A stretch of 64,000 nucleotides of DNA. Origin: Rhodospirillales bacterium (GTDB taxonomy: Bacteria > Pseudomonadota > Alphaproteobacteria > Rhodospirillales > Casp-alpha2). The DNA lies in assembly GCA_017640505.1 (NCBI GenBank), contig JAEPQO010000002.1:186001-250000 (forward strand), read 5' to 3'. Under the pieces are notes generated by a model. That model was not told where the DNA came from. It ran no database searches and saw only the letters and a program-made list of their open reading frames with translations. Both the position numbers and the translations under genes were made by a program. Shown here in pieces: positions 560 to 59,081 of this stretch. Every line of letters starts with the position of its first letter. The stretch's first letter is position 1.

Positions 560-1585
560 TTACGCCGCGAGCTGGTCGAGGTTGGCGTTGTAGAAGTCCC
601 GGATCAGGGCCTTCACGGCGTCGGGGTCGGTCATCTGATTGACCTGAGAACGAAAATCAGATGAATCACGTAACCCCTTGGAATACCATCCGATATGCTT
701 GCGCGCGATGCGAATGCCGGCGTGGACGCCATAGTGTTCCAGGATGTCTTCGTAGTGTGTCAGCACGGTTTCCATCTGATCTTCCAAAGACGGGTCCGGC
801 AGTTCGCCGCCCTCGCTCAGGAAGTGCTGAACCTGCGCCGGAAACCACGGCCGTCCATAGGTGCCGCGCCCGATCAACACGCCATCGGCGCCGGACTGCG
901 CGAGTGCTTCTTTCGCGTCTTCCAGTGTGTTGATGTCGCCGTTCGCGAACACCGGCAGGCTGACGGCTTCCTTGACGTTGCGGATGAAACGCCAGTCCGC
1001 GTGCCCCTTGTAGAACTGGCAGCGTGTACGGCCATGCACGGCGAGCGCCTGGATGCCGCTTTCCTCGGCGATGCGGGCGAGTTCAGGTGCGTTGCGGGAA
1101 ACGTCGTCCCAGCCCGTCCGCATCTTCAGCGTGACCGGAATCTTGACCGCCTTGACGGTCGCTTCGAGCAACTTGCCAGCGTGCACCAGATCGCGCATCA
1201 GCGCGGACCCGGCGTCGCCGTTGGTCACCTTCTTGACCGGGCAGCCCATGTTGATGTCGATCAGCGCCGCGCCGCGGTCTTCGTTCAGGCGCGCGGCCTC
1301 GGCCATGACATCGGGTTCGCAGCCCGCCAACTGCACCGACATGGGGTGTTCCTCGGCACAGTGCGTTGCCATTTTCATGGTCTTTTTGGCGGCATAGACC
1401 ATGGCCTTGGAGGCGATCATCTCGGACACCACCAGACCCACGCCCCAGCGTTTCACGAGCCGTCGGAACGGCATGTCGGTCACGCCGGACATGGGCGCCA
1501 AAACGACCTGTCCGTCCAGCTGCACCGGACCGATGCTAATCGGTTTCAAATTCGACAATGTTGCACCCCTCCAAGAGTTGCACAC
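560..1585 (-). CDS. dusB: tRNA-dihydrouridine synthase DusB (NifR3)
   Basis: Flavoenzyme that reduces specific uridines in the tRNA D-loop to dihydrouridine using NADPH. The FMN-binding TIM barrel opens with [15 protein letters not shown] (about residues 28-42), and the catalytic Cys lies in NMGCPVKKV (Cys115). Length (341 aa) fits the family. The first ATG gives an unusual N-terminus; a TTG at codon 10 ([10 protein letters not shown]) would give a more typical one, so the start is uncertain. It heads the dusB-ntrB unit, as in nifR3-ntrBC operons. Confidence 0.95.
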
Positions 1586-1632
1586 AAATTAGGCATATCC
1601 GGCCAAAATGCAATGATTTTTAGGTGCTTAAA

Positions 1633-2430
1633 TCAGCCCAGGAGGACGTCGGTGACGAACTTCACGCCGGGATAGCCAAGAGTGAGCATCAGGTAGGCTA
1701 AAAGCACGACACGCGCGGCTTTGCGGCCCCGCAGGCCATATTTCGCCTGGGCGAAAAGCAGCAGTCCGATGACGGCGAACGCGGCCAGGGTGAAGATGGT
1801 CTTGTGATCGGGGGTTAAAAGCGCGCCGCCGGCGATCGCATTGAGCACGACACCGCTGACCAGACCGAGACCGAGCACGATCTCGCCGACCAGCAGGAAG
1901 CGCAGCACAAGTCGGTCGCAATCCGTGATCGACGGCAGCACGCCGCCGAGTGTCGGCCGGTCCTTGCGTTTCAGCGCACGTTCCTGGAGGAACGCCGCCC
2001 ACGCGGCAACGGCGGCAAGCGTGGCCAGCCCGTACGTGGTGACGGCAAACGCGATATGCAGCACCAGAAGGCCGGTCGTTGCGCCCGATACAGGTTCGTT
2101 CGGCGCGTGCTGCCAGGCAAAACCGAGGACGGCGAGGACCAGCATGTAACCGCTCAGAAGCGGGGCCAGGCGCCACACGCTCCTGACCAGCACCGAGAAG
2201 ACCAGGAACAGGGCCATGGTGGCGGCGATGGTCACCCAGATCGAGGTCGAGAAGTCGGCCTGCCATGCGTCCTGCGAGCGCACGGCGACGGCACTCGCGG
2301 GGCCGATGCAGGCGAGCGCGCAGACGGTCCAGAACGCGGTATTGCGCGCGAAATGGGTCCGCCACGTCAAAGCGACGGCGGGAACCAGTGAGGCAATCGC
2401 GGTAAGTCCGAACAGCAACCCTGTCTGCAT
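1633..2430 (-). CDS. CcsA/HemX-like cytochrome c assembly membrane protein
   Basis: Integral membrane protein of 265 aa with about eight hydrophobic segments, matching the cytochrome c assembly family (CcsA/HemX/YpjD-like). Relatives help deliver or handle haem, but the tryptophan-rich WWD signature of true CcsA/CcmF is not evident, so I assign the family and not a defined step. The ATG at 2430 (MQTGLLFG) puts the first membrane helix at the N-terminus; an earlier in-frame ATG at 2454 is possible. It lies between dusB and the divergent ispDF. Confidence 0.72.
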   Translation of the reverse strand: MQTGLLFGLTAIASLVPAVALTWRTHFARNTAFWTVCALACIGPASAVAVRSQDAWQADFSTSIWVTIAATMALFLVFSVLVRSVWRLAPLLSGYMLVLAVLGFAWQHAPNEPVSGATTGLLVLHIAFAVTTYGLATLAAVAAWAAFLQERALKRKDRPTLGGVLPSITDCDRLVLRFLLVGEIVLGLGLVSGVVLNAIAGGALLTPDHKTIFTLAAFAVIGLLLFAQAKYGLRGRKAARVVLLAYLMLTLGYPGVKFVTDVLLG

Positions 2431-2580
2431 GCTGCACCATCGCGCCCTGCCCACGTTTTGGCAAGGGGTATGAGAGGGCCGGACAGCCGGGCTTATCGGG
2501 GGTTATCGCTTGGCAATGGCGTTGGCGACGGGTAAAGCTCTACCCCCGAAATTGAACGCCAAACCGAAGGAGCGCACCCG

Positions 2581-3753
2581 ATGCCGGGTACCGCGGTGAT
2601 CATCGTTGCAGCCGGTCGCGGCCACAGGTTCGGCGCGGAAATGCCGAAACAGTTCCTGCGCGCCGGGGGCGCCCCCTTGATCCGCCATGCGGTCGCGGCA
2701 TTCATCTCGCATGCATCCGTTGACGTCGTGCTGCCCGTCATTCATCCGGACGACGCGGAGATCGTCGCCGAGGCGCTGGACGGGCTCGACGTCATGGCGC
2801 CGGTTGCCGGCGGCGCGGCGCGCCAGGACTCTGTCCGCAACGGCCTCGAGGCGCTGGCGAGCATGGCCCCCGACATTGTTCTCGTGCATGACGCCGCACG
2901 TCCCCTCGTCGCCCACGACATGATTGACCGGGTGCTGGAAGGGCTTGGCGCGCACCCGGGTGTCATCCCTGCCCTTCAGGTCGTCGACACGTTGAAGCGC
3001 GCGGATGCCGCGGGCGTGATCGCCGATACGGTATCGCGCGACGGGCTGTGGCGTGCGCAGACCCCGCAGGGCTTCCGTTACGACGCGCTGCTTCAGGCAC
3101 ACCGCGCGGCCGCGGGACAGGAACTGACCGATGATGCCGCCGTGATGGAAGCGGCAGGTCATAAGGTCGGCGTTGTCGCCGGCGACGATGCGAACCTGAA
3201 GGTAACGACCCCGGAAGATCTCGGGAAAGTGGAGAGGATGATGGCGGACAGCACCGGAAAAGCAGGCCACGGCGGGATCAGGGTCGGCAACGGTTTCGAC
3301 GTGCACAAGCTCGGACCGGGCGATCATGTTACGCTTTGCGGCATCGACATCGCACATGATCAGGGACTGATCGGTCATTCCGATGCGGACGTGGCGCTGC
3401 ATGCGCTGTGCGACGCCATATTCGGTGCGCTCGGCGACGGCGACATCGGCAGTCATTTTCCGCCGAGCGACGAACAGTGGCGCGGTGCACCGTCCGACCG
3501 GTTTCTGGCCTACGCGTGCGCGCGGATGCGCGACCGCGGTTTCGAACTCGGCAACGCCGACATCACGATTATCTGTGAGCGGCCGAAAATCGGCCCGCAC
3601 CGCGACGCTATGCGCGCAAGAATAGCGGAAGTGGCATCAACTGAACTTTCGCGTGTTTCCGTCAAGGCGACCACCACCGAGAAACTCGGGTTTACTGGGC
3701 GTGGCGAAGGTATTGCCGCCCAGGCGAGCGTGCTGCTGGTTTCGGAAAATTGA
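2581..3753 (+). CDS. ispDF: Bifunctional IspD/IspF of the MEP isoprenoid pathway
   Basis: The fused enzyme carries CDP-ME synthesis (IspD, about residues 1-225) and MEcPP synthesis (IspF, about 233-390), two non-consecutive MEP steps. IspD shows the nucleotide-binding start [13 protein letters not shown], with Lys23 in PKQF, and VHDAARPLV. IspF shows the metal ligands in GFDVHKL (Asp240, His242) and IGHSDADV. The fusion is common in alphaproteobacteria. The gene is monocistronic here, divergent from the CcsA-like gene, and followed by the receiver-like gene. Confidence 0.96.
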
Positions 3754-3857
3754 TCACTCTGGTCCGTTGACCCGCACGCGTGATCGGTTACATTTTCATG
3801 CTTTAGGGGTGGGGAGGCAGCCGGACGGCCAATAGCCCTCCGTGGAATGCGCGTCGC

Positions 3858-4781
3858 ATGAATCAGAAACATACCTTCAATCAGGTAGATGTGTTGTTGA
3901 TCGACACCGATCTCAATGCGCGTCAGGGCGTGCGGACCATTCTTTCCAACAACGGCTTTTCCAACGTGACGCTCGGTACCGACCTCGCCAAGGTGCGCGA
4001 TGCCGTGAGCACGCGGATGCCGGACCTGCTGCTGTGCGGCACGGAATTCCCGGACGGAAAAATTACCGACCTGTTGCGCGATATCCGCATGAACAAGATC
4101 GGCAACAACCCTTTCATGCCGATCATTATCCTACTGTCGGAACCGACGCCGGATCTGGTCAAGGGGATCATGGGGGCCGGCGCCGATGACGTGGTGATGA
4201 AGCCGGTTTCGACCAAGGCCCTGCTCGACCGTATCCATACGCAGATTCACCGCCGCAAGCCTTACATCGTACAGGAAGAATATCTCGGACCGGCGCGCAA
4301 GGGCGACGACGTGACGCGTGCCATTGATCCGCCGAACCCGTTGCACGCCAAGGCGACCGGTGGACAGGTCAACTTTCACGAAATTGAACGCGCGATCGAC
4401 AATGCACTGATCGAAGTCCGCGACCGCAAGCTGGAAAACGCCGGCCCCGAGATCGCCGCGATGGTCGGGCGGATCGTGCCGATGCTCGACAACAAGCCGA
4501 AGGTCACCGAGGTTGCGCTTGGCGGTCTGCACATGCTGATCGACATGAACGGCGATCTGATCAGCCGTCTCGCCGGGACCAAATACGATCATGTCTCGGA
4601 ACTGTGCAAGGCGATGGTGACCGTGTCGCAACGCTTGTGTGACAGCACCGGCGGGCCGCCGGATCAGACCCAGGTCAAGCTTCTGAAGCCGTTGTCCCAG
4701 GCCATTCAGGCGGGCTTCGCGGGCGGTATCAACAATGCTGAGACGGCGCGCATGATCGTCGAGCGCATCGGCGTCAAATAA
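3858..4781 (+). CDS. Receiver-domain protein lacking the phospho-acceptor aspartate
   Basis: The N-terminal ~125 residues follow a CheY-like receiver fold: acidic residues at the end of beta-1 (DVLLIDTD, Asp16/Asp18) and the conserved Lys in VMKPVS (Lys115). The position normally occupied by the phosphorylated Asp is Gly61 in LLLCGTEFPDG, four residues before the conserved Pro, so phosphorylation there is not expected. The C-terminal ~180 residues are mostly helical and I do not recognise them. It could act as a constitutive or protein-binding pseudo-receiver. No kinase gene adjoins it. Confidence 0.75.
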   Translation: MNQKHTFNQVDVLLIDTDLNARQGVRTILSNNGFSNVTLGTDLAKVRDAVSTRMPDLLLCGTEFPDGKITDLLRDIRMNKIGNNPFMPIIILLSEPTPDLVKGIMGAGADDVVMKPVSTKALLDRIHTQIHRRKPYIVQEEYLGPARKGDDVTRAIDPPNPLHAKATGGQVNFHEIERAIDNALIEVRDRKLENAGPEIAAMVGRIVPMLDNKPKVTEVALGGLHMLIDMNGDLISRLAGTKYDHVSELCKAMVTVSQRLCDSTGGPPDQTQVKLLKPLSQAIQAGFAGGINNAETARMIVERIGVK

Positions 4782-55968: not shown

Positions 55969-56565
55969 TCAGACCACGAGGAACTGCCTGAGCGTTTCGT
56001 ATGCGTTGCGGACTTCCTTGAATTTTTCCTCCGCCGCCTTGGTGCCGCCGTTGGCGTCGGGGTGGTGCTTTTTAACAAGCTCCTTGTAACGGCTTTTCAG
56101 ATCGTTGGCGCTGACCGGCAACTGCAGTCCGAAAACGGCCAACGCGGCGCGCGTCGGCGCATCGGCCTGTGGCTGTGACGAGGTCGCCGTCGTCTCGTCG
56201 AACAGGCCGAAGTCGTCGATGAAATAGTTGGGATCGAAACCGAACGGCCCGGTGCCGGGTTTCGGCCCCTTCCCCGTCGGTGCGTCCCGGTCGCCAATCG
56301 GCCACGACGGCCGGTTCCAGACCGTATCGTGGCGTAACGACGCCTCGACCTCGTCGTCGGACATTCCTTCGAAGTAGTTCCAGCGGCTGTTGTACTGGCG
56401 GATATGTTCCAGGCAGAACCATCGGTACTCGCGCAACTGTTCGCGCGACCGCGGCGCTTTGTGGTCGGCTTTCATCTGGCAATCCGGCCATTCGCACAGG
56501 CGAATATCCTCCGCGACATCGTCGCGCATGTCCAAGGAGGGATGAATACGTTTGCGTCTGGCCAT
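55969..56565 (-). CDS. C-terminal J-domain protein
   Basis: A 198-aa protein with a C-terminal J-domain (about 130-198): [20 protein letters not shown] and the HPD motif in [10 protein letters not shown]. The N-terminal part holds Cys/His residues ([15 protein letters not shown] and [11 protein letters not shown]) that may bind a metal. J-domains stimulate DnaK ATPase. It lies upstream of cobS on the same strand, the usual alphaproteobacterial context. Confidence 0.85.
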
Positions 56566-56718: not shown

Positions 56719-58611
56719 ATGACGGAGCAGAATTCCAACGGCGGCGACGCGGACGGGGCAGTTGATGCCGACCGCTACGACGCGCTGTTCGGGCGCATCC
56801 CGCTGACGACCGAAACGTCGCAGCCCCTGCAATCCGAAGAACCTAAAAAAGGATTTTGGCTCGAACTCGCCGAGAACGAGGGCTATGAGCGGCTGAATCT
56901 TGCAGCAACTTATCTGGCCGTGTTCTTCGCACCGATCGCCGCCTTTCTCGAAATGCTGGGCGGCACCACCGAGCTTTACTGGTCGATGGAGGCCGCGCGC
57001 TGGGTCGAGGCCTTGATGGGCATCTTCTTCATGTTCGATATCTGCGTCGGCGCGCTGGCGTACGGCATGAAGTATTTCAAGACGCCGGCCGCGTGGATCA
57101 ACATCCTCGCCGTCGGCGCGACCGGTGCGTCGTTCCTGGCCGGTGACGTCGGCATCGCCAACCCGCGGGTGCTGCGAATCCTTCGGACCGTTCGTGCCGT
57201 CGCCAAGGTCGGGCTGGTACAGAAGGTCGGCACCCGGGAAACCGTGCTCGGTGCCGAAATGCTATCGTCGATGGGCCGCGACGATGCGTGGTATGCCGTC
57301 GGCATTCTGTTGCTGATCAGCATGCTGGGCGATTTCTCGATTGGCCATTACCAGCATTTCTCCGATCCGATTCTCGAGGTGATCATCTATGCCGGGATGG
57401 TCTTCGCCGTCAGGTGGAAGGCCGAGCGCAACGTCGAGCGCGTCGGCAAGGTGTTCATGGACCGCCTGCACGAGGCCAATCAGGTCATCCTCGCCAAGAT
57501 GCGGGAAATTCCCGGGCTGGAGGATGCGGATACGATCATCCAGCGCCGCGCTGAGGAAGCCGAGAGCGAGGGCCGGCATCTCAACGAGATCGATACCCTG
57601 ATCGAAGCGATCAGCATGATCATTTCGAACCTGCGGCGCTTCATCAGCCGCCGTGCTTTCCTCGAAGCCAAGGGGGAACGGGTGATCCCTACCCGCTCGC
57701 CGGTGGCACTGATGTTCACCGACGTGGCTGGGTTTCAGGCGATGACGCACGAGCTGGAAAAGGACATCCTGCCGGTGCTGAAGACGTACCTGGGCGAGAT
57801 GAACCGCGGCGTTACCCGGCATGGCGGTGATATCGACAAGTTCCTGGGCGAAGGCATCTTCGCCTACTTCCACAACAACGAAGACCCGCGCACCAGCGCC
57901 AACGCCGCCTTCGACGCGGCGGTCGAGATGCACAAACTCTCGGAAGCGCTCGAGGTTGCCGGTGGCGTGTGGGAGGAATTCCTCAAGGGCCGGAACGATT
58001 GGGAAGGCCGGCGCAATTTCAACACGCGTTTCGGCCTGCACTGGGGCCTCGTCGTGGCGGGCCCCGTCGGTGACGACGACCGCGCCGATTCGACACTGAT
58101 CGGCGACAACGTGACACTGGCGTCGCGCCTCGAGAGCCTGAACGAGGTCTACGGCACGCAGATTCTCGTCAGTTCGGCGTTCCACGAATGTCTGAGCGCG
58201 GATCGCCGCGTGCTGTGCCGCCGCGTTGACCGGGTGGTGTTCGCGGGCCACGAAGAGCCGGTCGACCTATATACCGTCGATATCAGCCAGCCTCCGGTCG
58301 GCTTCCTGCTGGCATTCGAAAAAGGCGTGAATGCCTATCTGGACGGGGATTGGGGTGTGGCGCGCGGTGAACTCCTTTTGGCGCGGGAAGCACTTCAGGA
58401 AATGGACGAAGACCCTGATCCTGCGACGGAAACCCTGATCAAGCGCATCGAGGATATCAATTCGTTCTGGCAAAAAGCGGTATCCCACCTGCGCGAGCGG
58501 GTCCCGGAAGACGTCACCGAGGACACCGCGAACGCCCTCGCCGACCGGCTTTCCGGAGATACCTGGCTGCCGCCGCACGAATGGCGCGGTGCCTGGCGCA
58601 TCATGGATTGA
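56719..58611 (+). CDS. Membrane nucleotide cyclase with voltage-sensor-like domain
   Basis: A 630-aa protein. About residues 62-165 form four helices like a voltage-sensor unit: S2-like FFMFDICVGALAYG has an acid at the charge-transfer position, and the fourth helix has R150, R153, R156 and R159, then K163 (RVLRILRTVRAVAK). Two more hydrophobic segments follow (about 190-205, 216-233), then a coiled linker and a class III cyclase domain (about 325-520): LMFTDVAGF (Asp335), DKFLGEGIFAYF (Glu378 in the second metal-Asp slot) and GDNVTLASRLES (Thr466 in the usual Asn slot). No pore filter seen. ATP versus GTP use is uncertain. Start at 56719 has GGGGA upstream. Confidence 0.8.
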   Translation: MTEQNSNGGDADGAVDADRYDALFGRIPLTTETSQPLQSEEPKKGFWLELAENEGYERLNLAATYLAVFFAPIAAFLEMLGGTTELYWSMEAARWVEALMGIFFMFDICVGALAYGMKYFKTPAAWINILAVGATGASFLAGDVGIANPRVLRILRTVRAVAKVGLVQKVGTRETVLGAEMLSSMGRDDAWYAVGILLLISMLGDFSIGHYQHFSDPILEVIIYAGMVFAVRWKAERNVERVGKVFMDRLHEANQVILAKMREIPGLEDADTIIQRRAEEAESEGRHLNEIDTLIEAISMIISNLRRFISRRAFLEAKGERVIPTRSPVALMFTDVAGFQAMTHELEKDILPVLKTYLGEMNRGVTRHGGDIDKFLGEGIFAYFHNNEDPRTSANAAFDAAVEMHKLSEALEVAGGVWEEFLKGRNDWEGRRNFNTRFGLHWGLVVAGPVGDDDRADSTLIGDNVTLASRLESLNEVYGTQILVSSAFHECLSADRRVLCRRVDRVVFAGHEEPVDLYTVDISQPPVGFLLAFEKGVNAYLDGDWGVARGELLLAREALQEMDEDPDPATETLIKRIEDINSFWQKAVSHLRERVPEDVTEDTANALADRLSGDTWLPPHEWRGAWRIMD

Positions 58612-58784: not shown

Positions 58785-59081
58785 ATGTCCAAAACCTGTG
58801 AACTGACCGGTCGCACCGTTCAAACCGGCAACAACGTGAGCCACGCGATGAACAAGACGCGTCGCCGGTTCCTGCCGAACCTGCAGACCACGTCGCTGTG
58901 GTCGGAAGCACTGGGCGAAAACGTCCGTTTCCGCGTCACCGCCTACGGCCTGCGCACGGTTGAGCACAACGGTGGCCTCGACGCCTACCTGATGAAAACC
59001 GGCGAAGACAAGCTGAGCACCAACGCCGCTCGCGTCAAACGCCGCATCAAGCAGGCGCTCGCCAAGGAAGCTGCCGCTTAA
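58785..59081 (+). CDS. rpmB: 50S ribosomal protein L28
   Basis: A 98-aa ribosomal protein. Typical features: [20 protein letters not shown], then the basic [10 protein letters not shown] and a lysine-rich C-terminus. The single N-terminal Cys lacks the zinc-ribbon partners, so it is a zinc-free form. ATG 58785 follows GAGGACCGAGACA. A terminator lies just downstream. Confidence 0.97.

Follow-up and report, generated by a model that had tools for sequence, protein, structure and literature searches.

Electrical signalling in bacteria is known mainly through ion channels. Fusions of an adenylyl cyclase with a K+ channel have reportedly been described from Paramecium, Tetrahymena and Plasmodium by Schultz in 1992 and Weber in 2004. 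In the excerpts of the literature consulted here, fusions of a voltage-sensor domain (VSD) or channel with a cyclase are described from alveolates (PMC3283738, PMC5746546, PMC10651576), and the Paramecium cyclase reportedly responds to hyperpolarisation (PMC3283738, PMC10651576, PMC12414865, PMC5746546). The original prediction for the locus studied here assigned voltage-coupled cyclases to ciliates; VSD-cyclases are also known from apicomplexans and oomycetes (PMC3283738 and PMC5746546 among the sources). Two papers from 2025, both cautiously worded, place such cyclases in protists only; according to one of them, dual-function channel cyclases appear to be restricted to protozoans (PMC12414865). 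No bacterial VSD-cyclase is named in the titles and abstract openings returned by our searches of open-licence PMC papers, and the word ‘cyclase’ does not occur in an article on voltage-controlled enzymes (PMC3440755). Within the literature surveyed, in the parts available, VSD-cyclases are reported only from alveolates and stramenopiles.

Here we analyse a gene in a 64,000-nt stretch of DNA (the window) from a Rhodospirillales bacterium (contig JAEPQO010000002.1; own genome, G000). The coding frame runs from an ATG start at 56719 to 58608, with the stop extending to 58611 and without internal stop, and its product consists, in order, of a VSD, an S5-S6 hairpin, a helical linker, a class III cyclase domain and a C-terminal extension (Table 1). 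The arrangement that characterizes the alveolate and stramenopile VSD-cyclases, a VSD followed by a class III cyclase in one chain, is present. Judging from these sequence features, we think the chances somewhat better than even that the protein is a pore-less, voltage-sensing class III cyclase in which membrane potential would set cAMP synthesis.

Table 1. Features of the VSD-cyclase gene and its neighbours, in window coordinates.
Feature	Position	Strand	Basis
Whole gene, 630 aa	56719..58611	+	open reading frame; also open in full-length orthologs G001, G003, G004, G005
S1, residues ~58-80	56890..56958	+	hydropathy
Pfam Ion_trans match, residues 91-179	56989..57255	+	27.4 bits, cut-off 25
S2, residues ~92-118, bears E97, F104, D107	56992..57072	+	hydropathy, alignment
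S3, residues ~123-141, Asn128 where Asp is usual	57085..57141	+	hydropathy, alignment
S4, residues 148-168, R150 R153 R156 R159 K163	57160..57222	+	hydropathy, shuffles, codon comparison
S4-S5 linker, residues 169-187	57223..57279	+	inferred from place between S4 and S5
S5, residues ~188-209	57280..57345	+	hydropathy
S6, residues ~215-235, without pore loop before it	57361..57423	+	hydropathy
Helical linker, residues 237-324, strongly conserved	57427..57690	+	no Pfam family at E 0.01
Class III cyclase domain, residues 325-522: D335, K374, E378, T459, T466, R470	57691..58284	+	Pfam, alignment
C-terminal extension, residues 523-630	58285..58608	+	no Pfam family at E 0.01
DnaJ-domain protein, divergent neighbour	55969..56565	-	PF00226, synteny
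Ribosomal protein L28 (rpmB), neighbour	58785..59081	+	TIGR00009, synteny

Four helices had originally been proposed ahead of the cyclase; hydropathy instead gives six membrane segments, five of them hydrophobic (58-86, 92-120, 122-147, 189-212 and 213-235) and one the amphipathic S4 (~148-168). Lysines and arginines number 2, 4 and 6 in the loops expected inside and 0, 0 and 0 in those expected outside, which fits a six-pass topology that would leave the cyclase inside; the stretch before S1 (45-57), with no K/R and four D/E, is of no help in this respect. The pore loop of voltage-gated channels is missing between S5 and S6, as only about nine residues join the two helices, too few for a pore. 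Likewise, the Ion_trans match covers positions 33-121 of the 241 in the profile, that is S2 to just past S4, and the pore part is absent.

Relationship to channel voltage sensors was assessed with profiles. Ion_trans scores above the Pfam cut-off of 25 in all five full-length genus copies (27.4-28.3 bits); a distant protein from genome G442 scores 19.9 bits, under the cut-off, and the piece from genome G010 was scanned without the relevant region. The window gene was not among the hits when the own genome was searched in six frames with PF00520. In the PDB, the single sequence matched sodium channels weakly (E 0.05 and above). A six-row profile of the transmembrane (TM) part matched 13 sequences with E no higher than 10; every one is a sodium channel or a NaChBac chimera, and the best has E 0.005. 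A seven-row profile to which G442 had been added matched 42 within the same limit, all voltage-gated cation channels (best E 6.5e-4). These 42 entries bear the name sodium channel, NaChBac/BH1501 or ‘Ion transport protein’, the last of which we take to be NavMs and NavAb/CavAb. Matches run from S2 to about the end of S4, and S1 is hardly covered, the longest matches (four bacterial entries) beginning at residue 74.

When the TM profile was aligned by hhalign with a profile of four bacterial channels, the probability was 88.9 (89.6-91.7 in a second comparison). A plain six-helix cyclase anchor from the own genome, represented by three sequences, gave 0.2, and a single MFS transporter sequence gave 0.1. 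The channel profile combined three own-genome channels with L040, and since L040 came from a search with the VSD-cyclase family the comparison is partly circular. In Pfam, Ion_trans was not found at E 1 in the six-helix cyclase (L057) or the dCache-type cyclase (L054) of the own genome. The voltage-sensor-like domain of the original prediction is thus backed by the Ion_trans match, the PDB profile matches and conservation, and the profile search proposed as a check on it, in which a plain membrane anchor should have found no channel sensor, did find such matches. The sequence evidence supports assignment of the N-terminal module as a putative VSD of the voltage-gated cation-channel type. Chance similarity was considered and rejected, given the rarity of the S4 run in shuffled sequences, the PDB profile matches and the low hhalign controls.

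The individual residues proposed for the sensor and the catalytic site (R150, R153, R156, R159, K163, D107, E378 and T466) all lie where they had been placed. In a VSD, S4 carries four or more basic residues spaced three apart, and R150, R153, R156 and R159 provide them; K163 stands four, not three, residues after R159 and is Arg in G442. When the whole protein was shuffled 20,000 times, 57 shuffles contained a run of four R/K spaced three apart and separated by hydrophobic residues; shuffling residues 45-320 as often gave 53. Among the 289 stop-to-stop frames in the window that reach 100 aa, the frame of the cyclase gene is the one that contains such a run. In S2, the charge-transfer site has its aromatic residue, F104, and its acid, D107, both kept in G442 together with E97, and the spacing of E97, F104 and D107 matches that of Shaker E283, F290 and E293. 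The S3 acid of the site is absent: all six rows covering the position have Asn128 in place of the usual Asp, a departure from strong voltage sensors that had been anticipated. The distance from D107 to N128 is 21 residues, the same as from E to D in the own-genome channel L043; in SLC9C1 the charge-transfer centre Glu746-Asp767 is likewise spaced by 21, according to an excerpt of PMC10620092.

The G442 protein, 43% identical over the TM and linker part, offers a distant comparison. S4 is the best-kept segment (13/21), with S1 at 16/28 and the cyclase at 95/198, and all nine sensor positions selected for comparison are identical, among them the S2 residues and every one of the four arginines of S4. 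Because these nine positions were picked with knowledge of the family, the hypergeometric value of 3e-4 is illustrative only. The S1 acid E78 is not kept.

Selection was measured within the genus. From the N-terminus on, the dN/dS ranges over three pairs were 0.38-0.55 (residues 1-44), 0.040-0.055 (S1-S4), 0.058-0.079 (S5-S6), 0.048-0.069 (linker), 0.069-0.084 (cyclase) and 0.14-0.16 (C-terminus). The 21 codons of S4 show no non-synonymous difference in any of the three pairs. By the same measure the linker is about as conserved as the VSD, which counts against the voltage-sensing reading. Similarity of the TM helices versus the catalytic domain was 0.91 versus 0.88 (G001) and 0.93 versus 0.87 (G003). 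This relation is equal or reversed in three control cyclases with TM segments: 0.73 versus 0.82 and 0.50 versus 0.76 for one of 726 aa, 0.93 versus 0.93 and 0.80 versus 0.88 for one of 450 aa of the six-helix type, and 0.62 versus 0.96 (one pair) for one of 1338 aa. A fourth control cyclase had no TM segment, and control orthologs were paired by size and similarity, not reciprocally. A mere membrane anchor would not be expected to have TM helices better kept than its cyclase.

As predicted, a cyclase domain follows the membrane helices: the Guanylate_cyc match scores 56.4 bits against a cut-off of 21.9. Catalysis in class III cyclases involves two metal-binding Asp, a Lys, a substrate residue, a transition-state Asn and an Arg. 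Alignment to chains 1wc0 and 3r5g finds D335, K374, T459 and R470 in place, with Glu378 at the second metal Asp and Thr466 at the transition-state Asn. An altered substrate choice had been suggested; however, K374 and T459 each have an identical counterpart in the adenylate cyclase chain 1wc0, so that substrate choice looks unaltered, and the suggestion was rejected. Lys together with Thr is the class IIIb adenylyl pattern.

Glu378 is found in all five intact genus copies and Asp in G010 and G442. Thr466 is found in three of the five (G000, G001, G005), and Asn in G003, G004, G010 and G442. All six canonical catalytic residues are present in G010 and G442. The own genome has 12 Guanylate_cyc matches, of which eight, the window gene included, were aligned, while the four others failed to align and were left out of the count; the seven other aligned cyclases all carry Asp and Asn. 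Since the relatives and these own-genome cyclases retain Asp and Asn, Glu378 and Thr466 are probably late changes inside the genus on a canonical enzyme, rather than a family trait. They may lower activity.

Among the genomes sampled, the gene is narrowly distributed. Matches were obtained in six of eight genus genomes (G000, G001, G003-G006), with none in G002 (58% complete) or G007. Another genus of the same family (G010) also matches, bringing the total for the order to 7 of 317 genomes. In the class sample, 3 of 385 genomes match, namely the own genome, G442, where the match is a genuine relative, and G623, where it is a plain channel; a second class-level search of 385 genomes returned two (G442 and G623), seemingly from the same sample, and adds little. 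The G623 match (21.8 bits) was rejected as a VSD-cyclase, being a 311-aa plain channel frame. The phylum sample gave 1 match in 398 genomes, the own genome alone, and searches centred on the family and order of G442 covered one genome, G442 itself. Within these samples the fusion is rare, with occurrences in a single genus, a second genus of its family and one distant genome. A contig search with a single sequence, of small reach, found two close relatives in MAGs (JAGLED010000021.1 and JAEPMA010000005.1). No relative turned up in viral contigs with the TM, full or channel profile, with one channel or with the cyclase domain, and a search of plasmids with the TM and linker part gave no match.

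In G000, G001, G003, G004, G005 and G006 the gene lies between a DnaJ-domain gene, itself beside cobS and cobT, and rpmB; G010 has the same neighbours on two contigs, both breaking inside the gene. In G007 (L121, G007:C100:3000-12000, ~1089-3938) 166 bases separate the ends of the DnaJ and rpmB matches, and no cyclase lies between them. About 1.8 kb separates the cobS and DnaJ matches in G007, compared with ~170-320 bases in the relatives. The G006 copy (L006/L052, G006:C33) is interrupted by in-frame stops as well as a frame break, and the first of its S4 arginines is replaced by Trp; either decay or an assembly or sequencing error would account for this. The broken copy and the absence from the usual place in G007 suggest that the gene is dispensable. 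In a tree of 39 cyclase-domain rows, a branch with support 100/97 has all seven VSD rows on one side, and the tree program warned of long branches meeting near this group. Recent foreign origin was rejected, as GC (0.621) and GC3 (0.79) match those of neighbouring genes.

In the mechanism we propose, a change in potential would move the S4 arginines past the Phe/Asp site of S2, and this movement would be transmitted by the S4-S5 linker and the S5-S6 hairpin to the long linker helix and on to the cyclase domains. The catalytic domains of class III cyclases pair as a dimer, and their pairing here would set cAMP output. The signal could feed a large cyclic-nucleotide network, the own genome having 18 cNMP-binding matches. 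The comparisons show VSD homology by profile, the lack of a pore loop, retention of the sensor residues and a canonical catalytic set in two relatives; from these we infer the fold, voltage-driven movement of S4, its coupling to catalysis and continued activity of the window copy with its Glu378 and Thr466. Activation could come from depolarisation or from hyperpolarisation.

Other proteins of the same genome touch on these functions. At G000:C8:180931-183305 (L058), two cNMP-binding matches lie near a 571-aa class III cyclase frame that aligns with Asp at the Lys position. A second membrane class III cyclase of 450 aa, with Leu aligned at the Lys position, is encoded at L057:1528-2877 on the minus strand (G000:C4, ~276,000), and Pfam finds in it no known sensor family at E 1, apart from a chance-level match. 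Three Ion_trans channels (L043, L044 and L045), two sodium-channel-like and one with a potassium-type filter as read by eye, indicate that the bacterium has several voltage-sensor proteins.

Other readings have to be weighed against a voltage-sensing cyclase. The bundle might derive from a VSD and keep its fold while sensing a proton, lipid, ligand, temperature or tension, and regulate the cyclase through that stimulus. The Asn at the S3 position, the marginal Ion_trans score and the different sensors of other bacterial cyclases, such as the dCache of L054, lend this some weight, but the distant G442 protein retains the S2 residues together with all four arginines of S4, and no non-synonymous S4 change is seen in three pairs; we consider this reading unlikely. 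We also find it rather improbable that the sensor is intact and the cyclase of the window species weak or dead through Glu378 and Thr466, the protein serving as a pseudoenzyme or as partner of another cyclase. Both canonical residues are kept in G010, in G442 and in every aligned own-genome cyclase (7 of the 11 others), which speaks for it. On the other hand, cyclase dN/dS is low (0.069-0.084), and both changes are common to several species, which argues against random decay. Glu is moreover a known metal ligand in the related GGDEF fold.

Very little probability attaches to the two remaining readings. One is a plain six-helix anchor whose likeness to a voltage sensor is accidental. Many class III cyclases have six-helix anchors with no known sensor, and AlphaFold yielded no fold (mean pLDDT 36.7 for the full length and 38.6 for the TM part) from an alignment in which the window protein was joined by L041 and L042, relatives with 86% identity. 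Yet the profiles match voltage-gated cation channels only, and the six-helix cyclase of the own genome shows neither Ion_trans at E 1 nor an hhalign probability above 0.2. The other is a domain that conducts ions, as a proton-channel-like VSD or a residual channel, with the cyclase regulated by or alongside the current. Against the precedent of the Paramecium adenylyl cyclase, itself reported as an ion channel in an excerpt of PMC12414865, stand the S5-S6 loop of about nine residues and the Pfam and PDB profile matches, which stop at about the end of S4.

If the voltage-sensing reading is correct, membrane potential would be turned straight into a second messenger in bacteria, by a switch akin to voltage-sensing phosphatases and ciliate cyclases. 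A pore-less bacterial version would offer a simple system for the question of how a VSD drives an enzyme, and possibly a voltage-to-cAMP tool. We give an even chance to the broader proposal, drawn from the sequence comparisons, that this is a bacterial enzyme directly gated by a VSD: a pore-less, potential-controlled adenylyl cyclase and the counterpart, possibly source or sister, of the alveolate and stramenopile VSD-cyclases.

Comparison with known systems places the protein among several partial likenesses. The six-helix cyclase L057 shares the plan of six or so membrane segments followed by a cyclase, without the VSD signature. The bacterial voltage-gated channels L043 and L044 share the S2-S3 spacing, the S4 arginines and an hhalign probability of ~90, but have a pore, no enzyme and an S3 Asp where the window protein has Asn. 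In SLC9C1, as described in the excerpt available, a VSD also controls a non-channel protein; this system is from animals, has another effector and keeps the S3 Asp. The Paramecium, Tetrahymena and Plasmodium fusions likewise join a VSD to an adenylyl cyclase (PMC3283738, PMC10651576, PMC12414865, PMC5746546); in the passages at hand they have a channel part with a GXG motif, unlike the window protein with no pore loop, and the Paramecium fusion has a reported conductance, unlike the pore-less bacterial protein. The eukaryotic VSD-cyclase PPTG_13136, likened here by its published description in part, has a longer gap between domains (Ion_trans 81-265, cyclase 518-756), and like the window protein it combines an N-terminal Ion_trans, an S4 motif and a C-terminal Guanylate_cyc domain with no homology in the pore helix.
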